Positions 1 to 43,365 of a stretch of 43,365 nt of DNA are shown piece by piece. The notes beneath the pieces are model-generated. The model had not been told where the DNA came from, did not search any database, and worked only from the letters and a program-made list of their open reading frames with translations. Position 1 is the first letter of the stretch, and each line of letters begins with the position of its first letter. The position numbers and the translations under genes were made by a program. Where the stretch lies: contig NW_003140346.1 of assembly GCF_000003605.2 (NCBI RefSeq), forward strand, positions 7,347 to 50,711, given 5' to 3'. The stretch is from Saccoglossus kowalevskii. Taxonomy: Eukaryota; Hemichordata; Enteropneusta; Harrimaniidae.

Positions 1-67
1 GAATAGAATAGAATAGAATAGAATAGAATAGAATAGAATAGAATAGAATAGAATAGAATAGAATAGA
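1..67. repeat. (GAATA)n pentanucleotide tract
   Basis: About 13 near-perfect copies of GAATA begin at the window edge, so the true left end is unknown. A short tract of the complementary motif (TTCTA repeated) lies at 2080-2097, about 2 kb away in opposite orientation. Confidence 0.97.
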
Positions 68-439
68 AGGTTATTTTGCAACTGCTAATATAATTTCAAT
101 ATTTTCTGGTTCAAATTGAAAACAATGAATAATATTAGTGAAATATTTTGGAATTCAACTCGTAGTAATGTTTACAATTAAAAAGTGGTTGGTATGTGGC
201 TGCAGGCAAGACAGTAGCAATGTTATTAAAACAATTTAAAAAGTTCATTCCAAAGCTTTCAATGACCTTAAAATTACCCCTTAACTGGTACATACAACAT
301 GGGATCAGTTTTCAATGAATCTTCTGCTTGTTTTACTTACATATAAATATATACATCAGATATGTAGACTACTATCATGGTCCTTAACCTTTACAATTGC
401 CAGATAACCTTTGTTATCTTTCACAAAATAAATCATCCA

Positions 440-600
440 TAATTTTGTCGATATTTTAACAACAAATTAATCAAGACCCGTAGATCATGGGAAATTATGG
501 CCATTTGGTTCAAAATTTATGAAGAATTTGTTGAAAAATAAATACAAATTTGCAAAATGCTGCACAAAAATTTTGGCGGTAAAAATCCTGGCGTTCATGT
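440..600. repeat. dispersed AT-rich repeat, copy 1
   Basis: This stretch shares an ordered set of phrases with 19095-19285: ATCAAGACC, then ATCATGGGAAATTATG or a close variant, then a run around CAAAATT, then AATATTGCAC or TGCTGCACA-like sequence, then a GCGGTAAAAA or GCTGAAAAA-like end. It is a diverged interspersed repeat of unknown class. No ends or target duplications could be fixed. Confidence 0.6.
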
Positions 601-1007
601 TTGTTGAAGTGTAATTGTTGATATTTTTGGTTTTTGGTTTGAGAGGTTACAAGACATGGGGTCTTTAGTGTGCCTAGCAACCGAGTTGTTTTACCTGCTT
701 ATGGTAAGACAGTGTCTCTCATCACATACTGCCATACTGTTTGAACTTAGAAATCAAATTGTTGTGCCGACTGAGTCCCGTTAGAAGTGTCTGTGCTTTT
801 GTGGTGCTTGGCTACCATTAAAACAGATCACTCGATTTCCCCACTTTTACAATATGGTTTCATTTTACCCTGTTGTTCATGTAATCATTATGAAATTTGA
901 TAACATAAATATATATTAAATCATATTTATTTATAAGATGCACATACATAAATTATAGAGTAAATGTGTCTGTGGTCAGAATGAGTCATAGTTTACCCAT
1001 TCAGAGT

Positions 1008-1213
1008 TACTGTAGAATACTTTATTTTCGCTTGGAATTTATTTTCGCTATTTTCGCTGAAGGGATGATTTCGTGAAAATAAAATCCAGCGAATATACTG
1101 TTTTTCCTATATTTCACATTAAACTCATGAAAAATCAGTGAAAATCAAGCAAAACGCCCAAAAAGCCTTTTCAGCGAAAATTAATTCCAGCGAAAATAAA
1201 GTATTCCACAGTA
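1008..1213. mobile_element. TACTGT-family MITE, copy A
   Basis: The left end (TACTGTAGAATACTTTATTT...) is the near-perfect reverse complement of the right end (...AAATAAAGTATTCCACAGTA), with about 40 bp of terminal inverted repeat on each side and no coding capacity. The element is 206 bp including the TA at each end, which suits a TA target-site duplication of the Tc1/mariner type. Related copies are at 14646-14815, 17892-18087 and 31328-31537. Confidence 0.85.
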
Positions 1214-3969
1214 GTTTATATGTGCTTCTACAGAACAGGCTTTAAGATAACGTACATCCTATGGGAATATTTTAGAAATCAGTAATTTTTTTTTTCTGCA
1301 TTTTTTAATACAGATTTTTCCCCAAAATATATTTTGCACTGTTTAAAAAAAATTATGAAAATCTTGACACAATCAATTCAATAGATTGAATGCCCAGCGA
1401 ATGACCTTAACTTCTCTGTCAAAGTCATGTGTGTATACAACAAATGACAGTTGAGTGTGAATGTTAAGAGGGAGGTGCTGGGAACTCTGTTCCTTGTTTC
1501 AACATACATTTGCATCTGTAATCTAAAACAGTTTGTTTTTGTATTAATGTGTAATTTGCTTACTGGGTTTCACAAAATACTAGTTTGTGGAGACTAGTCC
1601 TCTTTAAAAACATGGTTTTTGTTATTAATCGGGGATTCAAACTTATTTGCTGCACGTGTGGATTCCCACGTTGCCCAGCCACACTACGTGTTCACTCAAA
1701 GGGATTTTGATTCACATATGTCATCTCAAGGAGAAGAAGGGTCAATGGAGGACTTTCTGAACACTAGTGGTGGGAAGACCTTCGTTCATTTGACGGATGT
1801 GGAACCTAGGGCAGAAATGTGTGAATTTGCATTGTGTGATTTAAATATAGGAACTTTGTTTTATACCTCCATGCATGCCTGGACCAATTTTACCCAAACT
1901 TAGTATTAAAAGTTACTCACCTTGGCAATATACCAATGAGAAATGAATAAATAAAATGAATTATTAATTTATAGTGAAATTTCATTACTTTTAGTTTATT
2001 TTCCCTTTTGAAAAATGTAAACATTTTTGTAGCTTAGAATAATTAAGAAATATATTTTCTAAATGGATGCATAAAGGGATTCTATTCTATTCTATTACCA
2101 ATTGCCTAATTGTCATTTCCAACATTTTGAAAAAAATTGAAAAAAAAGAAAAAAATCATGTTTGATTTGTTAAAATTCAACAAATTGCGGCTTTGGGGTT
2201 GAAAAAAGTTTTAATGACACAAGTTTGATATGTACAAGGATGGAGATATCTGTATGCATTCACATACATGTATCCAGGTATGAATTTGAGTGCAGTAGAT
2301 ACAGTCAATTTGGTTTCGCGTACATGTTGTGAATTATTTCAGACAGTTGAGGAATCTCCACCAATCTGCCAATTGTGGACAGGAAGTAGTTTACATTTAC
2401 ATCCTAGGGGGCTATAGTACATGTTCACTCATGCTTTACCACTCTATGCGCAACACTCATTGCAGCGGATGCTTTCAAAATTCTGATCTTTCAGAATAGT
2501 TCATGGGTTGCTTCAGCACAATTTAATAGTTCATCCTTAACCAGATCACAACAGTCTTTTTTTCGAAGAATACATTTAGACTTCTTTCTGAAATCTACCA
2601 TGCACCCAAACAATTTTTGATCAGACATCAACTATAACTGAATTGAAGATTGTGTTCTTTCTGGTATTACAAATTTATTTTGGAAAATATCATTTTAGAA
2701 AATATAAAAATTATAATGATATTAAATCAAAAGTCCTTTTGTATAAATTTGTTTAAAGTGCCGTCGTCATGAAGCTTGCATTCACATTTTATGTAAATTA
2801 ATGAAAATAGAATTATGTCCCAGAGCAAATTCTTGAACAGATGAAAAATGTATTTTTGCTGACATTTTCGGCTCTCTCTAAATTATTGCTATAAGTAGAA
2901 AAAGATTTATAACGATAATAATCTTAACACTTTTATGTAGAATGCACACGAGGTAACACAAGATGGCATCAACTTATTAAATGTGTGTGTCGGTGGATCT
3001 GTCTTTGTGCATGTATGCTTTGAAGTATTGTCACATTAACTTTGTATACTATTTTGTGATGTCACTTCAGTGTGTGTCAACCCATGCTTACTTGTTGTTC
3101 CATTTCTGCTGCTGTCAAATCACATACAAAATACATTTTGAATAAAGTTGAAGATTTTATCGCTATTTTGTTTCTACAGTAAAAATTATGTTCACAAACA
3201 GGTATGACAAAAAGTATTGATCAACAAAAATGGGCAAAAGTTTTTTAGTATGACTGAAAAGATTATTGTGCACTGGTAAATGTCAGGGGATGTTTTCTCT
3301 GCTCTACTAGCAATAAGTCGGCGATGGAGATGCAAGCTTAGATTAAAGTCGGTTGAGTGGGTACTCAGCTTAGGACAAAGCATCGCTTCTACTTGATTAC
3401 CGCTCAAATAAAATGTAAACCTGCTGTTGAATTCTCTGGTCGTGTCATTGTGCACCTTTGAGGATGACATCGCTGACATCGAGGCAACACACAAAAAGTT
3501 CACATAGTCTTTGGTAGTTGCAATTACTACAATCTTATTACTATTCGAACGCACATTTCTAGTTAACCTCTGACCTTGAAATGTTTCTTTTCCCACCAAA
3601 ATGTGGTAACGAAATATTTTAATTTGAAAACAAAACAAAACAATCGCATGAAGCGGTTGTTAGCTTTCACGTCAACATTTGAAGTAGGGGGTCCAATGAA
3701 TAGAGAGAAACTCTAGAATGTTTTGTTAATCCTCGTTCTGATTGCTTGCTTAATTATGCTGATTGCAAAACTTTATGTAAATAATACTAAATGACAATGC
3801 CAGATATTGTTGTTTTCACGCTGTTGTGTATATATTCGTCACTTCACCATCACAATTTATCACATTTTTTGGATTTTATAAAAAAATTCTTGATTGTTTT
3901 TTTGGGGGGAGGGGGGTACAGTACGTAGTCTGTTATTAGCAAAAATAATAGTTTACAATAAATACATTT

Positions 3970-4145
3970 AACCCTTGATTACCAATATAAAAGTTTGCCT
4001 TTTTTTAACAAAATAATTTAATGCGTTAATTGTTCATTTTTTTGGGCAATGGGAAATTAAATGTATTTGGTTTTAAAATTATCAAAGAAATTACACATAA
4101 TGAATTTTAAAAATGTTCGACACAAATTTGGCGGGAAAAATTAGA
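3970..4145. repeat. possible diverged copy of the 440-600 repeat
   Basis: The phrase GGGAAATTAAATG, a following TTTGGTT, and the end TTTGGCGGGAAAAATT resemble the copy at 440-600 in the same order. The similarity is patchy and may be chance in AT-rich DNA. Confidence 0.35.
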
Positions 4146-6751
4146 AAAGAATTCAAAGTTACATACAAGTGGGTGTTGTGGTTATGATATTTAGAAAGAA
4201 TCACTGATGCTTAGCGTGCTGAGCTTGTTTTAAGTCTAGGATTGAGTGGAGTACATGTATGCAGCTGAGACCTGGCCACTCTTGAGTGAGATTTCAAGTA
4301 TGTTAAATGGAACCCCATTAATGCTTGTAATACAAGCTTGAATTTCAAAAATTCTTCTGAAAACTGCTTAGCCCAAAGAAAACAGCTCCAACTACAGCAT
4401 TCAGAGAGAAAACACATTTGGCAGCAACTTTCTTTTTATTTCTGAAATGTGCCAGTGTGGTTTTGCAAATATTGAACATGCAAAGACTGGCGATTTAAAA
4501 AAAAAAAAAAAAGTTGCATCAATTCTGGTTGTGTTTAGGATAAAGATAATGGTAGAGAAAAGCCATCCGTGGTCTGGAGACATGTACGTCATGTGACCTA
4601 AAGAAGAATAAATCGATTTGTCTACTTAGAAGATAGCACTACTACAGATATTATAAGCCTGTTTCATCCAGTCTTACATAGTTTTGCCATTAGTAGAGGA
4701 GGTTAATGATTTGATTGATATCGGATACTCTACTCTATGTGGATTTATAGCCCTGCTCATGCACTAATTACACATACAAATTCCTTTATTGAAAATAAAA
4801 ATTGGCTTTTTGAACTATTTTTTTTAAAATTACGTGCTTGTCTATTCATAATGACAGAATGATGGATTATAGTGAAATACTGTGTTACATTGCAGTTTGC
4901 ATAATGAATATTTATTGTGTTTGTTATTTCTTTTCTCCAATAATAGATCAGCCTTTTTTAATATGGGCAACAAAACAAAGATTTATATCTTGTTCTATGA
5001 TGTGTTTTTTTTTAAGTGCGCCATAATTGTCACATTAAATGTCAAACAAAAGCCCTAACAAAAATATTCATGTTTATGCTGACTGCAGATGGCAGAAAAA
5101 ATGAAAGAAAAATTCAGTTTTCATGACAAATAATAAATGTCATGACAATTGAAGAATCAAAAATAAAAATGAAAAGCCACCCTTGTGCATCAATTTTAGT
5201 AACATTTTTCATTTTTTTGAAAAAAAACAATTTAAAATCTTAATCTGTATATGTATAGTTTTACTTTTTAAAATAAAAATATGTATCACAGTTCCATCAC
5301 ATTTATTAATAGTGATGCAACGATGTTTCATGAACAAATAAAAATACAAATCATCCTCTCCAACAACATTTATGTTGCATTGGGGATATCTGGGTGATAA
5401 AATCCTTTGACAGGATGCTAATCCATCAATGCCAGCTACTAATAAAACCAAACAGAGCAGTGTTAAATCAGAATCAGTCATGAAGTTTCCTACATGACTG
5501 GGGTATTTATTTACTCTATATACCGTACTTGCAGCATGAAATAGAATCAATAGTGGGCTCCATCATCTACCATAACGATCACAAACCCATTTCGTTGATT
5601 TTTATAAATATTTATAAATTTCAATGGCATGTTAAATGCAATCAGCCAATCAATGAGCACAGTGCATAATGACATCATTTGAAAATGTTCCAATGTTATT
5701 CCATTGGCCAGTAGAAAGCTTTCAGTTTGAATTGTGAAATTACAATTTTGTTATGATAAACAAGGAATTGGATTTGTGGTCACGATAGTACTTTGATACA
5801 TAGCATTTTAAAATTAAGCATTCGGTAATTAAAATTCCGTATAAATTTTGCTTTTACATTGGAAAATATTTCTATTTTGGTAATTGTTGAACTTCCTGTG
5901 ACTGAGAAGTCTAATTTTCCTGAAACGTGTGGGATCCATGGTTTGTGATTAGATTTTCTTGTGTGGTCAAAATGTCAGTAGTAGACAGTGTACAGTACCA
6001 CTACATCTGGTGTCTGACTGAGCCGTGAATGAATATTGGTGAAATGGTCACAACTGAACTAAATATGCTCCTGTGTTACTTGTTTACAATTGATGAAGCA
6101 TGTTGTCACTTATCGCTGTGTCAAATTAGTGACCCTGTAATATTTAAAAAAAGGAATTAAATGTTTGTTAGTGGCTGTTTTAAATTAAGGGTTGTGTTCG
6201 ACGTGCAACATGAGCTTGTTAAAAAACTTGCATAGCAACAGACCCATGTATAACTAAATGTAATTCAGATAATAATTTTTGAAATCAAAGAATTGAAATT
6301 TAATTCAAAGATGATAACCTGCTAGAAATATTCACAGAAAAATTAAATATAATTTGCATTATTATGGAAATGAGTAGATTTGGCGCAAACAACGACTATA
6401 TTGTGGGAGATGATGAATGTTAACAATGGCAGTGAAAGTTTTGATGATATGCAAATTACCTAATTAATATGCACATGCAGAAAATAAAATTATTTTGTGG
6501 AAGGTGACAGAAGTTGACAAAGTGATGAAAAGGTTGATGTAGTTTAGAGATTCTGTCTTAATGTTGCTATCAGCTACAGACAGAGCAGTGGGACTCAAAT
6601 CAGTCATGGGCTTCAATTAAAGGCGTTTCCTCAAGAGTCGGTTATCAGCGCTTAATAATAATCATTTAGAGACAAGCCGTGGTTTCCCAGTGGTATACTG
6701 TGTATTCCACACTACTAGTCATGTGTTACTGTCCAAACATTGCTTTCAAGG

Positions 6752-6775
6752 CTGTGTGTGTGTGTCTGTGTGTGA
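6752..6775. repeat. short (TG)n microsatellite
   Basis: A TG-rich run of about 24 bp interrupted by one C. It lies deep inside an intron. Confidence 0.85.
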
Positions 6776-8165
6776 ACTTTTTTATTTAATTTTCAGATTG
6801 TTAAATAGTTAAAAGTCCACTTCAAAACACTGTGACCTAATTTGGTACAGCGAATTTGATTGGGTAAAGTTGGTGTGGAGTGAACCATTATACTCCTTGT
6901 ATAGCCATTTGTAGACAGAGGAACATTAATATGCGCTTATTGATTTTAACAAGGAAAACTATAAAAGTGTTAAAATCTTCATTCCCAATTTTTGACAAAT
7001 TAGGTTTCTGCTTGGCATGCAGTATAGATCATTTTGGCCTGATATCAGTTCTGGTGCATAGACCACCCCTTTTTTTTATCCCTAGACTGAATTAGAATGT
7101 TCCCATATCCCATAATTCATTGCTTTGTTTGCTTTGGGGATTCAGCTCCCAACACAATTCCCCAACACCTAGATACTTTCATGCATGAACCAAATTTGTC
7201 TTGTAGTAGTTATTCAAGGATGGATTTCAAACGTTTCAGGCCGTCTTTTATTTACAACTAGTTGTTTGTTCTGTAGTTTTTGTGAATCAACCATCTTGAA
7301 CAGAAAAATAATTCTCCAATTCTGAGTTAATACTTCATGCACGACAAAGCAGAACTTCGAAAAGATTTTGTTTTAGTTTTCATTTATTTCTTCAGTATTT
7401 CATCAACAGCTGTAAAACAGTTCGCTTGGTTCAATCTGGTATTAATTACCATTTTTCGGTATAACTCAAATAACAAACAACTGACTGGCTGAATGAACTT
7501 GGCAACAGATGCCATCACAATTTACTTGTACCCCCTGTCACACCATTGAGGGCACTTGACTTTGCATTCAAAGAATTAAGCTAAACATTGTAGCTCTTCT
7601 CATTTTATACGGCTCATGAGAACCAATCATATTTTTAGATTTATGTTTTGAAAACATTCTGGAGAAGTTTTTTTTTATATCGGGTGTCAGTTCTAGACAT
7701 TGAACATCACGGTTTTCTCTCCTGACTTTTTTCTGTGGAAATTGCAATAGCGAAATTGCAACTGACATACAGTTCAGTACATTTTGCCAAAGAAGCCATA
7801 TTGCACGTTTGAGACTAATTGTTGTGACCATTTTCCAATGATATTAATGGCGTTATGGCAATTTAATAGTGCATTACCCATACCCACAATGTCTTGTTTA
7901 TCACAAGAACCTGCAGTTTCTCACAATGTGCCATATGTTAGTTTGATGTTAGATTCTCAGCCAGTAGCTTGGGCCACCCCATTGAGTCTGTGGTACACTC
8001 ACACATGTACGATTTGAACTCCTGGCCATTGGTCATGATTCCAATGCAACAACCACTACACTACCAATGATTGAAAATGTGATGTAACTAAACCATATTC
8101 ACTAAAGAAATTATTAATTATTATAATTGTTTAACTTAAATATATTAATCTGTTTATTCTTACAG

Positions 8166-17200: not shown

Positions 17201-20200
17201 ATTTTTGGTAAAAAGTGATATTTTCGACTTCTTGTTAAAAACTGTAAGTCCGATTGCTTTGATACTATTCATATTGTTCATTTTCTAATGATATCTTCTG
17301 TTCTTTAATTGAAATGTGCATTGCTAACAGCGGAGCTATCTCAGCCGACAGGCTGCTTGTTTTAGGTCAATATCCTTATATTGCCTTGGAGTACAGTTTA
17401 TTGCAAAATGAATAAATTCTGGGTATTTAATTTAGGAATAGGCTTCTACCTTAATTTCCACTCACATATCTACTAGGCTTGGTTATCTTGTTATGATATG
17501 TACAGTTTAAAATGAAATAAAGGCGTGGATTCAAGTTTGTTTTATGTGACCTCACACATGTTAACAATTTTTGTAAAATTACTGTAGACTGCTTTATTTT
17601 CGCAAGAGGAGAATTTCCCAAAGCAGTAAAAATGTCACTGATGTCCCAAAGATAATGGGTCACAGAGATTTTATCAAAATATTGTCTTCATGAATTCCAT
17701 AAAAAACCATAAAAATAATAAACAGTGATAGTATAACATCACCTGTTGACGCCATTTTTTTCTGAATCATTTTGGCAAGCTGTTAAAACATTCAGCAAGT
17801 AATATGTTTACTACCTTATACTAAAATATGTTTGAATATTTAGAGTACTAACAAATTCCCACTTCCGGCCCGGTTAGAGGTAAAATACTAATACTGTGAA
17901 ATACTTTATTTTAGCTGGAATTAATTTTTGTTTTTTTTGTATGAAATTTATTATTTATTGATTTTTGACAAGTTGAATGTAAATTATAGGAAAAAGGTAT
18001 ATTCGTTAGATTTTATTTTCACTGAGTCATTCCTTCAACGAAAATAGCGAGAATTAATTCCAAGCGAAAAAAATGTATTTCACAGTAGTTTGTAGTGTAC
18101 TGGGTATACAACCTTTTTCCCCAGAGTGTAAACAATCCAGACAGTGCCCATAGCAACAATTACACAGTATGTTAAATATTACCCAGATAACAATGTCTTC
18201 ATTAAAAAATATGAGACTATATTAGATCCTAATCTATCGTAAATTGGTTGAAATGGAGATGATATCGAGTGTTGCCTATAAAGATGATAAGTTACAGCCA
18301 CTGACTTACTGGACAGAGAACAGCAGTACTGTTACTTGTGTACAGCTCTGCTTTGCCATTTACGACCTATCTAAATACCAGTCACAGGGGGTTAGAAGTG
18401 ACCTTTGACCTTTCATATATACATTTCATTATAATGACCAAACATCTTGGTTGAAATTTCTAAAAATTAAATTGTGTAATTTAAGTCATATGAAACATTT
18501 TTTTAGTTTTGTTTTTTCTTTTTATTATTTATAATCTTTTTTTTCAAAAATGTGTTTTATTACATGTAACTTTTCCTCTTACTCAGGGGATTGAGTTAAG
18601 TGTTCATAAAGATTGATGTAAAACTTTTTTTTTTCATACAAAATTAAACGTGATGAGTAGTTTCCATGGTGATGTGCTGATGAGTATACTTGTAGAGTGT
18701 AGGGATTTATACACTGGAGTGGCTTAGATTAGACGTCCAGACAATCTGGAGTCAATCTAGGCTCCAGCAATATATTTACCTTGTTGATTTCGTCAGGGTG
18801 GGTCATTCAGAGTTCATTGCACTTTTGACCTATATTTGTAAAATACTTACTACTTCAGTTGATGTAATTTGTTGTCTATTAAAATGGTAATAGTAAAATC
18901 AATAATTACGTGATAGGAAAAAAAAATACCGTACCTATTGATTGGTCGATATGGGTCATGTGATCTATTATGCGGGTCATTCCCCTGCAGCACATGTTCA
19001 GATTTTATTATAAACAAACAATGTATTTTACATGCATTGTATATGTTGCCACGGTAACACAACACTGTGACTCCTTATAAACCTTTGAGCGCCTAAGTCA
19101 ACTTTTCTCAACATTCACAAAATGAACTTTCATAATTTTTAAAATATTTTTTCAAAGATTTTGATCAAGACCAGTGATTCATGGGAAATTATGTTCATTT
19201 TGTCCAAAATTAAAAAAGAAATTATAGAAAAATATATTAAAATTTGCTGAATATTGCACCAGAATTTAGGCTGAAAAAAAATGTGGCCCTCAAAGTGTTA
19301 GCTTGAGAAATGTAACAGTGACACACCTTCTAATATGTAAAATACAATTTGTATGCGATGACGAGATTTGAAGTATTGTCATTCATTGCATTTAGGGTAC
19401 TGTATGGTAATAAGATTTCCGAACTTCCCGCTGGATTATTAAAAGGACTGACATCGTTGCAGTTATTACTGTTAAACGCTAATAAGATAACGTGTTTACG
19501 AGTGGATACATTTCGTGATCTCTCTGCTCTCAATCTTCTGTAAGTATTGTTCTATTATTTATCGTTTCTCTGTATTGACAAAAAAGCCGTATATCAGTTT
19601 GCCCAATCATGAATTGAATAACAAAAGTAATGAGATATGCTTCGTATGTCTGCTCTTGAACACTTACTATGATTGGACTGTAATTCGTAGATAGTTATAG
19701 AGAAGAAGTTGAAAATCACTAGATATTGATTGACCTTATGTGATCTTGAAAGGTCATTGACCTTGATGAACTTTTCAACTTTTTTGTTTATTTGTACTAA
19801 AGAACTGATTTGATTAATAATTTTTTATTTATATGTTATAGGTCATTATATGACAATGATATCAAGTCTATTGCGAACGGAACTTTTATGCCGCTTGTCA
19901 GCGTACAAACATTGTAAGTATACAAACAATAATATTTGAAGCAAGCGCTTCCATGAGCAATGTTAAAACTAGTAAAAATACAACATCTTGTGTATTTCTA
20001 ATTGAGAAAGTATATGTGCATTATTTGACATGTACTTGTAATAGAAGAAATACTGTACAGTACATGTACTTATACTGGAGGTGTACTTCTAATAGAGAAA
20101 ATACAGTACATGTACGTTTATTGGAGGTGTGCTTCCAATAGAAGAAATACTAGTACAGTACATGTACTTCTATTGGAGATGTGCTTCTAATAGAGGAAAT

Positions 20201-23200
20201 ACGGTACATGTACTTTTATTGGAGGTGTGCTTCTAATAGAGGAAATACAGTACATGTACTTTTATTGAAGGTGTGTTTCTAACAGAGGAAATACAGTACA
20301 TGTACTTTTATTGGCGGTGTGCTTCTAATAGAGGAAATACAGTACATGTACTTCTACTGGAAGTGTGCTGCTAATAGAGGAATTACAGTACATGTACTTT
20401 TATTGGAGGTGTGCTTCTAATAGAGGAAATACAGTACATGTACTTTAATTGAAAGTGTGCTTCTAATAAAGGAAATACAGTGAGACCAATGGTCTAATGA
20501 CCAATTAGAGTTCACCAAGCTGATCCTAACTTGAGTCAAGTGCCTTATACAATGGTTGTACTCTACATTCTGCATGTCAATACCGGTAAACATGATACAA
20601 AGCCACCAAACACCAATTGACACAGTTTGTTCTGCGTACATTTATTTAAATGTTCGTATATTGTTCACCTATTAATCCGCTTTGACTTGATGACGAAATC
20701 TGTCGTCTAGTCGTCCCATATGCCAGGATGGCTAAGCTTGGCTTTCCAGATTCACCGCATTGATAGGTACTCTAGTTGGGCGCTGTACGCTCAGTATTCA
20801 AATTAACGTTGTTGACGATCAGTATGGGGCAACAGATAATGTGCGCAAGATGGATGAACAGTGTCGCCCGTTTACTAACTTGTATTGTCCTTTTGAAATT
20901 CATTCATGCAGTGTCTATAAAATACCAAGTAATCCAATTTGCCAAAATAACAATGGAGTGCGCCCATGCAGAAATGCTTCTTAGTCTGCAGTTATTCATT
21001 TATATCATCAGTACCATCCATTTCACTAACCGCCCTCATCAACACCTCAAACTTTCGGCTTTCACATTATTTGCAAGCGTATTTAAAATGACTTGCTTAA
21101 GTTTATTGAATGCCCTGAGGGGTCATCAACTTTCATATATATCCTAAGAAGTCATGCATTTATTGATTCACTTGAGGAGTCAGATGTTTATTAAGTACCC
21201 TAAGATATCGCCAACTTTTCATATGTTCTAAGGAGTCATTGATTAATTATATGACTTAGGGGGTCATAGATTTCTTGAGTGCCCTAAGGGGTCATAGATT
21301 TATAACCTGTCTAATGTAAATATTGCACCTGTTTTTTGTACTTTTTAGATTACTTATGCTCAACAACGAAATATTACCAAAACAAAACTGTTTTTTTTTT
21401 AATGTCAAATTATTAAAACACTAGAACCATATATCATCATATTAGTTAACCAGAATTTTCAGAAAACTGATCAACACTGGGAAACCTGTTACAAGTACTA
21501 ATATGAGTTGTTATTGCCAGAAATGTTAATATATTGTGCACTTTGCGAGAAAACTAACTGTGAGGAACGTGCACATTTATTGCAGCATAGTGTTCAAATT
21601 CTACATGTGACATCATCGACACATTCCTCATTGCCACTTACAAGGTTTGTTGTCTGTTTTGTAAATCGAGTTAAATGCAAAAAATATCAAATTAGCAAAT
21701 TTGACGCAGACAACATTCAGTATTTTTCTGTGATGGAGATTTTTCTTACCGGGGATGTTTTTGATTGTTTCCTGGAGAGTAAATTTCTCACATTACAGGT
21801 GAGGAACATGTTATGATATTATAGACTGTGAGATATCAGAGTAGAGATGATCATGATTCAGATTCAAAGGATTTCCTGGCTGACTTTTATTTTGATGTTC
21901 ATCTGACAGAAGAATTCCATCTGGGGTACACACAAGCCACTTCCCCTCAGTCAATAGAAGGCGCTCAGTTAACCCCTATTATGTCATTGGCCAGAGGATT
22001 CTTCTTATTGGCTCCTAATACCTGCTTGGTCAGTTGGTCAGTTGGCCAGAATTCAGTGCTTTACTGTAAGTTATACTTGCATACAGAAACAATTATTGTT
22101 GATATCGCTGTCCAGCGAAGAAAACAAATCTGTGGTGTTTCTCAGTACTTTTTATCCACAATAAGAAGAAAAAGCTACACCAGTTAAGGAGGTCTTTTTA
22201 TTTTTTTGGAAATAATTGGAATTTCAACCACCTCAATTTGCTTTCACTGTGTACTTGTAATTGTAAATAAATTGCTATTATCAAAGCACAATTGGTATAT
22301 TGAAATCCGACAATAGTACTACTGTTAATGGCGTGGTTCACTTCACTGGCCCTGCTCTCCAGAGACCCCTCTCACAAGAGTGAAATTCTTGTGGACTCTA
22401 AAAACTGCTTTAACTAGGCTATCCCGTTGCATAGCTTGTTGACACCTTTCCAAACAGGCACTCCATTGGAGATAATAAAACCAACATACTGGACCTACAG
22501 ATACTTACATGCGGTTTCTGTAAAGTTGTTTTCATGTGACTGCAGTACACATGGGATTTGTTTATCAGGACAAAAGAAAAACAATAGTAGTTTGCTTTAA
22601 CTGCCAGAGAGGGCGCTGATTTATCAAACCATCTTAATATTTTTTCATTCCCTTCTGTTTTGCAGACACTTAGCCAAAAATCCTTTCATTTGTGACTGTA
22701 ATTTGAAATGGCTGTCGGAATATTTGCACAATAATCCTGGAATAGAAACAAGTGGTGCACGATGTGAAAACCCACGAAGAATGAGCAACAAAAGAATTGG
22801 ACAAGTCAAACCCGTAAAGTTCAAGTGCAAAGGTATTCTTATTTTCACACCATTCTCACTTATGCAACAATATTTTGCTACTAAGCACCTGTAACTTTTA
22901 CATCAGTAGTGTTTATTTTGACCACGGACACACCTTTGTTATTTCACGTATGCACATGTGCTACTAATTTACACACATAGAACCAGAGAGAAAACAGAGA
23001 TATTTAAGGTAGAAGCCTACTCATAATTTTTGAGAATGTTGGTTATAAATCACATGACAATGTTCATTGTTCTATTATGTACCCCATTATTAACAATAGC
23101 CTATGTCGCCAGCCTACAATTTGAAATATGGCATAATACCTCTCCAATAGGAACCTATGGTAAAAGCGCTATGACACTGCCAAAATGGCAGACTATCCAC

Positions 23201-26200: not shown

Positions 26201-29200
26201 TATTGATAATCTTTAAAAATAAAAATCAACAATGTTCTTGTATAATAGTTATCAACAAATATGCTGAATTGTGACCAGATTTATTGCGCATATTATAGTC
26301 GCATTGACATATTACAATATGTTTACACTGATGCTCATTTGTTTAAAGTACTTCTTACATAGATGCTCTTTTGTTTATGTACTGTATCCATTTTGAGGCT
26401 TTGACCCCTGACCTGAGTAACAGTTTAGTATTCCAGTATTCTAAAATGGCTGACCGGTATTAGTAAACTTCAGACTTAAACCACACTAAATATAATATTT
26501 CAGAATCTCTGAACATCAAAAAATATTAATAGCCAAGTAATCATATGCAATAATAATGAAAGAATTTATATTTTTATTTCGTTTTACTTACTGCATTGAT
26601 GTGATATTTTTTATGATTATTCCTGTGAGAAATTATTTAGGATAGTTTGGGTGTTGTATTGCTTTGATTAATAAATCACATTTTTGTTATAACTAAAAGA
26701 TATTTTCTCTAATATATCACTTTTTTGAATAATTAAATAATACTTGGCACAAATTCAATAACATTTTTGTGTTCTTTCACCAAATCTTATTTTTTTGCAC
26801 CACAATCTCATTAATTCACACCAAATTGCTATAACTGCACTTTTTGTTCAGTTCAAGGGGTGTATTTTATTAAAACCAAGTGATTTATTTTTAATTATCT
26901 TTTGTTAACAAGGTGATGATATGTGTTTATATATAACATTTATTATGCAAAATTTGCTTTTAACAATTTTTTTTATTTATGCTTTCTGCACAATTCAAGA
27001 CTGTTAACAAATAACAAGCTGAGCAAAGTTAAGGGAAGCATGTTTGTTGGAGTTAGAAATTTAAAAACAATGTAAGTCCCATATGTGTGTGGAAATAGCA
27101 TGCATTTGAAGCACCTCTATCTTCATGCTTTTGTTAATTTTCTTTATAAATGCATGGTTGATTATCATCTGCTTTTAGTTTTCTGTAGTTTTGAAAGATA
27201 TAGAATAAAATATATTATAAACAAAAGAAAATATAGAAATATAGAAAATATTTTGAGCTGTTCTTCCCCCAAATACATATAATGCAGTATTAACTATGGT
27301 GTTGTTGACAATTTATAAGTTCTTTGTAGTTGATGACTGGAAGATGCCAGTGAGGTAGTTGTTGAGTCGACTGTTTACTTGAATTATGGTACATGTGCTG
27401 TATCGGTGGCGTGCTTCTATTAGAGTAAATATGGTACATTTGCTGTATTGCTGGTGTGCTTCTATTAGAGTAAATCTGGTACATGTGCTGTATTGGTGGT
27501 GTGCTTCTATTAGAGTAAATATGGTACATTTGCTGTATTGCAGGTGTGCTTCTATTAGAGTAAATCTGGTACATGTGCTGTATTGGTGGTGTGCTTCTAT
27601 AGAGTAAATGTGGTACATGTGCTGTATTGGTGGCATGCTTCTATTAGAGTAAATATGGTACATGTGCTGTATTGGTGGTGTGCTTCTAATGGAGTAAATA
27701 TGGTACATGTGCTGTATTGGTAGTGTGCTTCCATTAGAGTAAATATGGTACATGTGCTGCATTGGTGGTGTGCTTCTAATATAGTAAATATGGTACATGT
27801 GCTGTATTGGCGGTGTGCTTCTAATAGAGTACATATGGTACATGTGCTGTATCGGTGGCGTGCTTCTATTAGAGTAAATATGGTACATTTACTGTATTGG
27901 TGGTGTACTTCTACCGTATTAGAGTAAATATGGTACATGTACATGTGCTGTATTGGTGGTGTGCTTCCATTAGAGTGAATATGGTACATGTGCTGTATTG
28001 GTGGTGTGCTTCTAATAGAGTAAATATGGTACATGTGCTGTATTGGTGGTGTGCTTCTAATAGAGTAAATATGGTACATGTGCTGTATTGGTGGTGTGCT
28101 TCTAATAGAGTAAATATGGTACATGTGCTGTATTGGTGGTGTGCTTCTAATAGAGTAAATATGGTACATGTGCTGTATTGGTGGTGTGCTTCTAATAGAG
28201 TAAATATGGTACATGTGCTGTATTGGTGGTGTGCTTCTATTAGAGTAAATATGGTACTGTATTGGTGGATAATTCGTATGCTTACCGCACCATTATTGGT
28301 CCCAACCAATACCCTCAGCGTTGTGCTGTAGTTAGTGTCTTGCTAGCTCACCTGCAGGCATTCACCTCCCGGCCAGAACCCAATCCATGAATGAAACCCC
28401 CCATTGTTGCCTCAATCTATTAATACTATATATTATTTTCATAAATAATGTGCATTTCAATTGCAATTTTATTGTCATAGTAATTAATACTAACAGCATC
28501 AATTTAATGAAAATTTTTCTTCATTCAACTTAAATTATCATTGTGATCATCCCTAGATATTCAATGTTCTTTTCTGACAGGTGAATTTTGTTTTGTGTTT
28601 GCTATTAAGTCTTGGTATGCTCTAGTGAAGTTTTATTCCCTTATTTAATTATATGGCAGTCCAAAACTATGTCCCATGTTTATTTTGTGAGGGGCACATT
28701 CTCGTGATTTTGAGAAAATCCCCAAATCTGGTATCACCACAGTCCCTCTGTGGTATCACTAAACAGCTCCTGAGAGTCTCTAACACAAGGGAGTGTTGGT
28801 GACTTTATTAAAATTTTGCCTGCATAAACAGACAAACCTTTCTTGCAGCAAAAGTTTAATGGCTCACAGATGATTATATTATCTAAACTACTTTGCATTA
28901 TACAATGCTGATAGAGTCATGTGATTCAATCGCTAACACATTAGACCTTTAAAATAATGCAAAAAAAACCAAAACAAATTCAAACATTATATAAAAAGTA
29001 TCAAGACAATTACAAAAACTTAGATGCCAGTGTTGTATTACATGAACGAATGAATATTAATACTTGGTGCAGTTGCATACTGTGATGAAATGACATGAGT
29101 TAATACGGCAGAATTGTCATGGAAACTAATATATCTACTTCTCATAATAGAATGCTACGTAGTAACCAGATCTCCTGCATCAACAATGAAACGTTCTCGG

Positions 29201-32200
29201 GTTTAACAAAAGTCAGACTGCTGTAAGTATCCATAACCTCATGAATTTGTCGTTACTCGAAATGAATATGAAATGAAATGAGTCTCATGTAATGGCAGCT
29301 GTAGTGGGTTGAAGCACTGAAATCTGTGATCTGTTTTCAAAACTGATAAATAATTTGTGATACAGCCACTAGGGGGCGCTGCTTTTCTAAAATTGTTTGT
29401 TTTTGTTTCAGATCATTGTATGACAATCAGATAAGGACTGTGATGCCAGGTTCATTTGATAATCTTAAAGAACTCTCCACTCTGTAAGTATAAAGCTGAT
29501 CAAATGACTGGACTGCTATTTTACTTGCATCATTGACAGACTCATTGAGTTATTATCCCATAATGCATTGCATAAATGATCAAGAACATGCTCAGAGTTT
29601 AAATTTGCCATATATAAAATGTACCTAGAATGTTGAATGTTGAAGCTTGCTTGCAAACAGGTTTGTATCACAAGGTAAATTAGTTTTGCTATATCTTTTT
29701 TTAACACTAGAAACCTGCTGTCCAATCCGTTTAACTGTAACTGTCATTTAGGATGGCTAGCTGATTGGTTGAAATCACGTACTATTGTTACGGGGAATCC
29801 AAGATGTCAGGCTCCTTCTCATCTTCGAGAAATACCAATACAGGATCTTAAAAAATATGACTTCAGTTGTGACAGTAAGTAAACACATAAATATCTTGAA
29901 GTTATAAATAATTTTTTTTTGAATGTTTTAATTCCAGTGAAACAGTCAATGTGACTCCCTAGGATCCCAGTAAAAGTCATTGTGACTCTATAGGACCCAA
30001 GTGAAAGTCATTGTGACTCCCTAATGGTAATACCCAGTGAAAGTCATTGTGATTCCCTAATGGTAATACCCAGTGAAAGTCATTGTGACTCCCTAATGGT
30101 AATACCCAGTGAAAGTCATTGTGACTCCCTAATACCAAGTAAAAGTTACTGTGACTCCCTAAGGCCCCAGTGAATGTCATTGAACCTATAGGACCCCAGT
30201 GAAAGTCATTGTGACTCCCTAAGATCCCAGTGAAAGTCAGTGAATTCTTAGTACCCCAGTAAAAGTCAGTGACTCACTAGGACCCCAGTCAAAGTCATTG
30301 TGACTCCCTAAGATCCCAGTGAAAGTCAGTGACTCACTAGGACCCCAGTCAAAGTCATTGTGACTCCCTAAGATCCCAGTCAAAGTCAGTGACTCACTAG
30401 GACCCCAGTCAAAGTCATTGTGACTCCCTAAGACCCTAGTGAAAATCACTATGACTCCAGAGTGAAATGTTTTCAGCTACAATTTACAGTGATCATTTCT
30501 CCTCCTTGGTATGTAAGAAGCACTGAAAAATGTCTCTATGGAGGACTGATTAATGTGTTAATATATTTCAGGTAACAATGACAACAGTTGTCTACCGTCT
30601 CTTGCTTGTCCACGGAATTGTGCGTGTTATGGTACTGTGGTTCGATGCAGTAATAAACAACTGACTAACCCTCCATATAATATACCTAATGAAACAACTG
30701 AACTGTAAGTACTGAACTTTATATTATATTATAAAATGAACCATGGAAATAAGAATTTCATTTAAACTTTTTTATTAACAGTTGTAGAAAAAGTGTGTGC
30801 TTTGAACTTATGAACTTATTCTTTTGTTTTTATGTTAAAGGCCAATAGAGGGCAACATACTGCAATGCCTGTCAGTATCTTGAGAAACAAGAAATCTACT
30901 TAAAATTATAGTATAATGGGGACATTAAAGAAACGCTTCTGATAATTGTTATAACAGTTGATGATTTCACTTACAGTCAAATCATGGTATCTCTGTCCTT
31001 ATAATTCTATTTATTTTTAACAGCTATCTGGATGTCAATAAATTGAAGTCTATTCCTGATTTGTCACGCCTGAAAAACCTCCACACAATGTAAGTCTGTA
31101 CTTTATATGACACAATTGTAACATGGATACTAACATGGGCTATGAAGATTATTCAAACATTTATCCCATCATGCATTGCTGTTACAAATTCTGCTTCTGG
31201 TACTCGCTAAACGTAACAGGCCTTGGAAGTTTATGTCTTATTCAATGTTGTGTATGTTGAGTTGTTAATGACTGTGGTTATTGTCTGATACCCCGGTACA
31301 TTTATTTATGAATTAAGTTATTTCATGTACTGTAAAAGGGTTAATTATTCACTGGGTTTTAATTTTGTTATTTCGCTGACTGGAAAATGCGCTAAATTAA
31401 AACCCAGTGAATATGTAAAATTGAGCATAGAACACATTATCTAAATGATAAAACCGTGAATTTAAAACCCACTGAATATGCCTGAAATGGTAAATCAGTG
31501 AAATTTAAACCAAGTGAAAATTAGTCATTTTACAGTACACCATTTTCATATTAAAGTCACTTGAAATGTGCAACACACATGGTTTTGAAGTCATGTAACA
31601 ATGTGAATGAATCACTATAATTTTTTTTTTTTTTGCAGTGATTTGAGTAATAATGATATCACCACCATCACGAACACTACCTTTGCAAACTTACCCAAGC
31701 TTGCAACATTGTAAGTAAGATGCTTGAATTTTATTTGTTTAATTTAGCCATATATTCATGCTAATATTTATATGAAATTGATTTATTCTCCATTACCTCA
31801 CTTCAGACTACTTGTGTCCTGTTCACATTCAACATAATTAGATTTGAATTCTTTTATTGGTGTTTTTACATGTCTGTGTTTTTACTGCTGCTTATTATCC
31901 TCATACCTTTGCCCTTCTTTGATGGTATTGAAAATAATAAATAATTCTCTAGTCTTTCAAAACACACTCAAATTCTTTCACCAAAATTTTTGTGGAACAT
32001 TTCTTTGAAAATTTAGGACCAAATTGACAGTTTTTGCTACAGTAAAAAATTGTCTTTGATATACTGTTATCATAGTTTGTATGCAAAACAGTACATCTGT
32101 ATTGAATAAAATATTATAATGTACACAAATTAGAAATAAACTATAGGTCGAACTGGATACCCGTCTGAGCCAAACACTGTGTGAACTGAAAATCTGTTTG

Positions 32201-35200
32201 AAACTCTACAGCGTTTCCAGTCTTTTTCCCAAGCTTGCTTATTTACATTTACCTCTTCCTTTGATTAAGATGTATCTCAAACAATACAACAACCGTATTC
32301 CTCTATATGTCCTGTTATTGTTGCCATTCCTTTTTTTCCATTAGAATCCTAAGCTACAACCATATTGGCTGTATACCTCCTGGTACATTCAGAGGTCTCC
32401 ATTCCCTGCGCATATTGTGAGTATCCATAATGACAATCTTATCTGTTTTTTTCATGCTATGTACGTTCAGATTGCTTAGTTACAATAATATTACTTGTAT
32501 TAAACCTGGACTTTTTGAAGGACTACATGCACTGAGGGTTCTGTGAGTATGCCACCAACACAACTGTTATATTATTGCATCACTGACCTGTTCACAACAT
32601 ACAAATGTAATTAATTATCTAGTTGTGCCATAAAACAGGAGCCAGCCTAACGTTTGAAATGTATTTTCACTGTTTAATTCATTCCACTCAAAAAATCTGT
32701 AAAATATTGTCTTGCATGAAATTAAAGCAATTTAAAATGTACTCCTTATTGAATAATTCATCAAATGGGGAGGATCATTTGACATTAACTCTAAAGTAGG
32801 TTAGATGCATACTTAAAATGATTCTGTTGAGTGCAGAGCTGTGTCGAAATTAGTAAAATAAAAGTACATTATGCAGCTAATTCAATACAGAATATGTTCT
32901 TACAACTTGTATTCCTAATAATAGTGGAAAACAACAATATGATAGACATATAATGCTTATATTTTCAGATCTCTCCATGGTAACGACATCTCTACTCTTC
33001 CATCAGGAGCATTCGATGAACTAGAGTCGCTTTCGCATATGTGAGTATTAAATTAGATGTTAAAGTGAGATATTAAAATTAATTGCTAAATTTGAAAAGG
33101 TTGAAACAGATTTGATAACAGTTATATTTTCTTGAAATAGACCAAGGTGATGCTGATGTATGTCTCCTACCGCTGACAGCCCCCTCATTAATTTGTGTTA
33201 GTTCCAAAATATAATGAATTATTAAAAAGAACACCAACATTACTTACTATTCAGATACTCATATAGTGGTTAATTTTGTTGCAACTAATTAAATTTGGTA
33301 ACACATGTGGTTTTTAAAATCAACAACTAGCTTGACTTTTTTTTCTCTTGTGTATCAAAGAATCTGTTACCACTATTAATATCTCTTACCAATACATGTA
33401 TGGTATGATTTTTCTGTAATTGTCAATCAATAATTTGTTTTAAAAAAGTGTTCTTTTGTTCTTTGTTATTGCTGTTTAAATATTTTCAATTTCAAAGTTA
33501 TAGTTATAGGAAAGTTATAGGACAATATCAGATTTTAAACTAAATTACTTTTAAAATTATTTTCTTGCTGACAGTGCCCTTGGTGCCAATCCACTTTACT
33601 GTGATTGTAGTTTGAGATGGTTGTCAGACTGGGTAAAATCTGGTTTCAAGGAGCCAGGTATTGCACGATGTTCTGGTCCATACAATTTGCAAGAAAAGCT
33701 TCTTTTGACAGCACCAACAAGAAAGTTTGAATGTAATGGTAAGTTATCAAAATAGTTATAAATCAACTGAAAAAAGTGAACAAAAAAATTTAAATGCGGT
33801 TCGAAAGTTGTGGGTATCAATGATCTGAGGTTGAGATTCAGTTTGTGTCATCTTTGATTTGGAGTGGATTCTGATAGTTTACCGCTCACAGATGACCATT
33901 TGCTCAACAAGTGTTTTGATTTAGGGATGTCAGACCAAACTGTGAATACTGTTACAAATGGCAATTCAATCCCTAGTCTTTGGCCGCAAAATTGTAACAT
34001 TTTTTTAACTGTTTTTTCATCTACAGAGATCCCTGACCTGTCAATTCTTGCTAAGTGTAATCCGTGTTTAGCTGAGCCGTGTTTAAATGATGGTGAATGT
34101 CACAATGGTGAATATGCTGGATATATATGTAAATGTGCCAGTGGGTTCAAAGGTCAGAACTGTGAGGAAGAGATCAATGAATGTGATAATGAACCCTGTA
34201 AAAATGGAGCTACATGCTACAAACAAAAAAAAGATTTCAGGTATTAAACCATTTTTTAAAAATTATATTAGTATGTTATATATATATATTTTTATTGCTG
34301 TCAACCAATAAATACTATTTCTAAGGATGCAGTAAATTATTATTATTATTGTTATTATTGTTGTTGTTGTTGTTAAATGTAGAACTTCATTGATAATGTA
34401 TACCCTCCTATCCCTACCCACAATTACGACAATTTGTTTTTATATCTTTTCTGTATTTCAGCTGCGAATGTCCAATAGGTTTTGTTGGTGATTTCTGTGA
34501 AGATAATATAAATGATTGTTTATTAAATAATTGTATGAATAATGCCACATGTATTGATGCAGTTAATAACTATACTTGTCAGTGTTCACCTGGATTTACT
34601 GGTGAGTGCCTCCAAATACTAACCTTCAATGCAGTCTGGCACTATTGTCATTTACCCAACATGTATTCTTGGGGGCAGACATTTAGAGATTTTCATCACC
34701 TGGAAACGATCGCTAAAGCTTTGGGATAGTGATTGAGACACTCCTAAACAGTGTAACAAAATAACCCCCTACATATGCAGCATATATATATATATTTGGT
34801 TGCTCAGGATTACCTCAAAGTTGAGTTTTTCTCAAGTTTAGTTGTTTTCATCTTGAAACGTAGGAAGAAAAACTTTATACAGTCCTGTATGTCTTAGCAA
34901 CAACACATTCTTTGACTTAAGCTCAGTTTTTTGTCCAACATGATTCCAGAGACATACTTCCACCGATTTTGTTTAAACATATAGAAGTCTTCAGATTTAC
35001 GGTCTGAGTTTGACTGACTGGCAACGATTTTGTAAAAATCACACGTACATGTTTATCAATTCTTGATGCTTCATTTTAGGATTTAAACAGTAAAACTACC
35101 AAGCCACAATAAATAAAAATGGCTACCTGTCAGCCATTACTATCCCCAAACCCAATACTAGTATTTCACCATATGCTACTCCTGCTAAGTAGGAATGTTC

Positions 35201-42649: not shown

Positions 42650-43365
42650 TACTTTACTCCACTGAATACCTAGGTATGATGCTAGTAATATCTCATTATG
42701 CAGCCTAGCATCTACAGTATTCCACTAACAATGCCTTACTCCACTAAATGCCTAGGTATGATGCTAGTAATATCTCATTATGTAGTCTGTCTAGCATCTA
42801 CAGTATTCCACAAACAATTCCTTACTCCACTTGATGCCTAGGTATGATGCTAGTAATATCTCATTATGCAGCCTGGCATCTATAGTATTCCACTAACAAT
42901 TCCTTACTCCACTAAATGTCTAGGTATGATGCTAGTAATATCTCATTATGCAGTCTAGCATCTATAGTATTCCACTAACAATTCCTTACTCCACTAAATG
43001 TCTAGGTATGATGCTAGTAATATCTCATTATGCAGTCTAGCATCTATAGTATTCCACTAACAATATCTTACTCCACTTAATGTCTAGGCATGATGCTAGT
43101 AATATCTCATTATGCAGTCTAGCATCTATACTATCCCACTAACAATATCTTACTCCACTTAATGCCTAGGTATGATGCTAGTAATATCTCATTATGCAGC
43201 CTAGCGTCTATAGTATTCCACTAACAATATCTTACACCACTTAATGTCTAGGCATGATGCTAGTAATATCTCATTATGCAGCCTAGCATCTATAGTATTC
43301 CACTAACAATTCCTTACTCCACTAAATGCCTAGGTATGATGCTAGTAATATCTCATTATGCAGCC
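42650..43365. repeat. 82-bp satellite running off the right edge
   Basis: About 8.7 units of roughly 82 bp (86 in one). Each carries TTACTCCACTAAATGCCTAG, GTATGATGCTAGTAATATCT, CATTATGCAGCCTAGCATCT and ATAGTATTCCACTAACAAT. Units are highly similar and the array continues beyond the window. Confidence 0.96.

Follow-up and report, generated by a model that had tools for sequence, protein, structure and literature searches.

Does the Slit gene on the + strand of this DNA encode a fourth LRR domain (D4) with one repeat more than its human counterpart, or does it hold two alternative versions of a single repeat? The question is raised by two neighboring 72-nt exons, e21 (exon 21, 32345..32416, + strand) and e22 (exon 22, 32471..32542, + strand), which encode similar LRRs and are separated by an intron of 54 nt (32417..32470). 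We favor mutually exclusive use of e21 and e22 as the best single explanation, with a probability of roughly 0.5, leaning to it because of the length of the intron and the pattern of one cysteine per Slit LRR domain. If the pair is exclusive, a cell's choice between two neighboring exon versions would give two forms of a nerve-guidance signal. Positions are those of the window, the whole 43,365-nt stretch analyzed, which spans 7347-50711 of a contig (C3139) of 50711 nt; the assembly searched comprises 572 Mb in 4,830 contigs.

The LRR exons of D1 to D4 are followed by EGF, laminin G and cystine-knot exons. Of the four capped LRR domains, D2, D3 and D4 were matched to human Slit2 D2 (PDB 2v9s, E 2e-93), D3 (PDB 2v70, E 7e-86) and D4 (PDB 2wfh), and D1 was found in part only. 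Downstream of D4, the EGF and Laminin_G profiles score over cut-off, and in the last exon DAN is over its cut-off and Cys_knot under its own; the EGF repeats, laminin G domain and C-terminal cystine knot of a Slit protein thus all lie 3' of D4. D2 and D3 have five LRRs apiece, and the contig yielded three LRR exons of D1, the last ones, together with its C-cap. An exon scan of the 15.5 kb that precede the first D1 exon recovered (contig 1-7346 plus window 1-8165) found neither the first-half D1 LRR exons nor the N-terminal cap. The 5' portion of the gene is therefore either missing, on another contig or built of exons of a different shape. The gene's first exons were not found on the contig, and the exon numbers 20-23 are those of the original prediction. 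A single 144-nt exon (19396-19539) carries two D2 LRRs fused with no intron between them; elsewhere in the gene each LRR found has an exon to itself. The D3 exon at 27000 has an AAG acceptor (TTCAAG), the weakest among the 21 scored in the gene (-9.61). Two different Slit introns contain minisatellites (20056-20481 and 27385-28257), whose units of 46 and 45 bp are alike by eye.

The D4 exons lie on the + strand. The linker and LRRNT cap exon (NSC..., 30572..30704) has an open frame and splice sites and aligns to 2wfh. It is followed by the first LRR exon (YLDVNKL..., 66 nt, 31024..31089), aligned to human YLDGNQF in 2wfh, and by exon 20 (31639..31710), aligned to the human DLSNN repeat. Beyond e21 and e22 lie the last LRR exon, SLHGN (exon 23, 32969..33040), the LRRCT cap exon (...KFEC, 33575..33738), which again aligns to 2wfh, and an exon holding the D4-EGF linker (ILAKC) and first EGF repeat (34027..34240), its 3' end guessed at a weak donor.

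Both e21 and e22 lie where the original prediction had put them, with phase 2, GT-AG introns and the donor GTGAGTAT, and retention of the 54-nt intron in the spliced model gives an in-frame stop at once. As adjacent internal exons of equal length, same phase and similar sequence, they have the anatomy of a mutually exclusive pair. They agree at 15 of 23 residues, against a mean of 7.1 (sd 1.8, maximum 11) for the other 119 pairs among 16 LRRs of the gene, a set from which the 66- and 75-nt LRRs were left out. At least 15 identities arose in 141 of 200,000 column-wise random draws, and on both counts a chance resemblance between LRRs was rejected. The figure of 15/23, first put forward for whole codons, is correct for residues but not for codons, since 41 of 69 nucleotides agree (14, 19 and 8 of 23 at codon positions 1, 2 and 3). 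The donor GTGAGTAT is indeed shared by e21 and e22, but it is weak evidence of duplication because exon 23 has it too and GTAAGTAT is common in the gene; the shared donor was dropped as proof.

In a DNA search of the genome the exon pair turned up at a single location. The dN between e21 and e22 is about 0.35 and dS is not computable. With third positions near random and the protein conserved, the copies are old by their sequence and both have apparently been held by selection as protein. Two simpler accounts were discarded. A recent local duplication is contradicted by the third positions and by the absence of direct repeats of at least 14 nt within 32200-33100, and a dead second exon by the open frame, intact LRR pattern and protein-level constraint of e22.

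An extra, tandemly duplicated D4 repeat with two possible fates had been predicted, correctly, and the expectation that human D4 has one such repeat was borne out against 2wfh. With both copies, the window D4 matches 2wfh in two overlapping stretches, because it has one extra repeat; when e22 is left out, a single phmmer stretch covers D4 (E 3e-74). The whole-sequence score is 252 bits with one copy and 237 with both, for queries that also differ by a short linker tail. The genomic D4 thus has two copies where a human-type D4 has a single ILSYN repeat, and either single-exon form would fit the human arrangement. The window and human domains share caps, repeats and the LRR cysteine, and differ by one additional 24-residue repeat in the window; the two-copy D4 is a variant inside the Slit family and not grounds for exclusion from it. 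Human D4 is counted as five LRRs in PMC4836088 and here as four plus caps, and by alignment the window has one repeat more whichever count is used.

The human repeat is identical to e21 at 16 and to e22 at 12 of 23 residues. For comparison, 11 pairs of orthologous human and window LRRs share 10-18 of 23 residues, which is about the distance between e21 and e22. As e22 is nearer to e21 (15/23) than to the human repeat, the alignment suggests that the duplication followed the split from the vertebrate line and that e21 is the less changed copy, an order that is only indicative with 23 residues. The predicted lineage-specific origin is therefore likely in the sense of an event after that split, but not in the sense of a recent one, and the exon pair may be common to the whole phylum or more. 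A tblastn search for relatives with the D4 C-cap as query found none in the viral and prokaryotic contig collections. The literature search found nothing on Slit in molluscs, and excerpts of the lophotrochozoan Slit literature gave no count of D4 repeats.

The strongest rival to mutually exclusive use, though we regard it as unlikely, is that both exons are always included and D4 is one LRR turn longer, through a plain gain of a repeat like that which built D1-D3. Constitutive exon duplication is a common way in which LRR arrays grow. On that reading D4 would form an eight-stranded sheet, compared with the seven-stranded sheet described for human D4. Joint inclusion is compatible with the coding sequence: all the exons are symmetric and in frame, and both copies are good LRRs in register, with Pfam LRR_8 found in the double-repeat D4. 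In a spliced model that starts at the first repeat of D3 and runs to the first EGF, the frame stays open whether both exons are included, either one or neither. Joint inclusion of the two 72-nt exons causes no frame shift, a safeguard (through NMD) that is frequent, at 377 (60%) of human clusters (PMC5740500), but not required. The exons being symmetric, the reading frame enforces no exclusion, and the same source, which argues that similar exons cannot be arranged in tandem, makes an exemption for repeat regions.

The length of the intron argues against joint inclusion. The other 13 introns of the Slit gene from D3 to the first EGF range from 189 to 2079 nt. A further 55 introns were taken from myosin, kinesin and TCP1 genes of the same genome, with lengths estimated from neighboring exon matches, a procedure blind to introns short enough for a single match to read through them. 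All 68 introns are longer than the 54-nt one, and none of them is below 100 nt. Four of the seven shortest estimates (108, 124, 153 and 191) were read in sequence and proved to be real GT-AG introns flanked by myosin or kinesin exons; the shortest, at 108 nt, reads as a 111-nt GT-AG intron between two myosin exons. The remaining three (165, 173 and 177) stand as estimates. A myosin intron of about 116 nt, absent from the list, also turned up. From the myosin matches 55 of 56 rows entered the sample (all but C1210:1610819-1611040), from the kinesin matches 66 of 68 (C1001:331218-331658 and C2718:135082-135423, both with internal stops, were omitted) and from the TCP1 matches 5 of 9 (the omissions being two near-intronless genes and two C2561 pieces). 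Adding the omitted myosin row would drop one pair (about 3.8 kb) and leave the short end unchanged. Two adjacent PF00664 pairs, about 241 and 216 nt apart by eye, were kept out of the sample.

No short intron flanked by coding sequence on both sides was seen in five matches that contain internal stops (L008, L017, L048, L051 and L057); in L051 a 50-nt GT-AG pair precedes a kinesin exon, but nothing upstream of the pair codes for kinesin-like sequence. A strong-consensus pattern for introns of 48-60 nt gave 13 matches genome-wide, against 5 in the reversed control, and convincing two-sided coding in none of the 13, one of which (L073) has a tropomodulin-like exon upstream only. At 108-120 nt the intron pattern gave 11 matches genome-wide and 11 in the reversed control, so this genome-wide test is without power and was not used. 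Folding of the RNA showed no unusual structure (z +1.08), a point against exclusive use.

YTNAY branch-point candidates lie at intron positions 25 and 38, that is 25 and 38 nt from the e21 donor, and about 50 nt from donor to branch point has been proposed as a steric threshold (PMC7969005). Of 629 human clusters of mutually exclusive exons, 57 (9%) fall below a value of 50 (PMC5740500). Introns of 43-65 nt are spliced in human cells (PMC8363638), however, so the 54-nt intron is a handicap and not a bar to joint use of e21 and e22.

The cysteines of the LRR domains also bear on joint inclusion. Each readable Slit LRR domain has one non-cap cysteine, in the context N-x-I/L-x-C; the set comprises human D2, D3 and D4, the shown part of fly D3, window D2 and D3, and the three D1 exons found. 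In fly D3 (PDB 1w8a) this cysteine is in the last repeat, and in human and window D3 it is in the repeat before. To judge from these alignments, it appears to have hopped by one repeat, its place moving while the number stays at one. The window linkers after D1, D2, D3 and D4 have one extra cysteine each in open frames. Presumably the LRR cysteine forms a disulfide with the linker cysteine. On such a linker bond the literature search gave nothing beyond the accessible part of PMC5807052, and that of PMC10366692 did not help.

The cysteine is present in both e21 and e22, with the codon TGT in each, and the count from D4 to the linker is therefore 10 with one exon and 11 with both. Joint inclusion thus leaves an odd number, with two cysteines at a place that otherwise has one per domain. 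Long retention of an odd cysteine would be surprising if both exons were always used together, and follows naturally if each exon has to serve alone. The argument is weaker than it looks, because 15 of 23 residues are shared in any case and a single kept residue is not rare.

Less probable again is cassette use, in which one exon, probably e21, would be standard and the other occasionally used or skipped with no strict exclusion. The acceptor of e21 is the better one, scoring 7.91 compared with 0.46 for that of e22, which a leave-one-out matrix ranks 18th among the 21 acceptors scored in the gene. With an acceptor on the weak side, e22 could be a low-use exon; the closeness of e21 to the human repeat points the same way. 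Against such marginal use stands the strong protein-level constraint on e22. It is very improbable that both exons are included and the unpaired second repeat cysteine bonds two D4 domains covalently, locking the Slit dimer: D4 is the dimerisation domain and TGT is kept in both copies despite near-random third positions, but exclusive exons would predict the same retention.

Under mutually exclusive use, the D4 repeat exon would have been duplicated in tandem long ago, giving Slit a pair of alternative exons. Across the 54-nt gap the spliceosome would be hard put to use the e21 donor and e22 acceptor together, and most transcripts would join exons 20-21-23 or 20-22-23. Each product would be a D4 of normal length that has the Tyr of the heparan-sulfate site and one repeat cysteine, probably the tether between domain and linker. 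The two forms would differ in loop and edge residues, and the e22 form would gain an N-glycosylation sequon.

Tyr810 and His833 of human D4 contact sulphate (PMC4836088). Their spacing of 23 equals that from the ILSYN Tyr to the SLHGN His in 2wfh, and by our own assignment they would be these two residues, the SLHGN His of exon 23 mapping to His833. Both e21 and e22 keep the mapped Tyr, so the sulphate site would persist with one or both exons. The predicted existence of two D4 surfaces would hold for the edges and loops, where the exons differ (H/N, G/T, P/K, T/L, R/E and S/A) and e22 adds an N-I-T sequon, but does not extend to the strand Ser-Tyr and the cysteine, which are identical. At the level of sequence, the choice of exon alters a putative glycosylation sequon and the edge charge. 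Slit could here be a two-state ligand, a proposal we hold tentatively and at somewhat less than even odds: a sterically enforced exon pair would swap one turn of D4, keep the sulphate Tyr and tether cysteine, and switch both the edge charge and a glycan site, which would let splicing tune matrix binding or dimerisation.

The arrangement resembles the mutually exclusive exons of the alpha-tropomyosin type, as in OGDH 4a/4b (PMC7969005), in having adjacent homologous exons and candidate branch points less than 50 nt from the donor. It differs in that the whole intron is short, where in those systems the branch point lies far from the acceptor, and in that exclusion is a prediction here. Within the Slit-Robo pathway, alternative splicing is known for microexon 6b of Robo1 and Robo2, and PMC12308364 describes isoform choice for the receptors Robo1 and Robo2, with Robo3 in its reference list. 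Splicing of the pair studied here would instead act on the sulphate-binding, dimerisation domain of the ligand. The phrase "mutually exclusive exons" was not found in the Slit literature among the matches listed. If our reading is right, through an old and conserved alternative exon the ligand itself would exist in two versions, and they would differ in the domain responsible for dimerisation and for holding heparan sulfate. The exon pair would also offer a simple natural test, both of the role of the D4 repeat and of the pattern of one cysteine per Slit LRR domain.

At the 3' end of the window, an 82-bp tandem repeat (42654-43365, 92% matches) reaches the very end of the contig, and the assembly may have stopped there because of it.
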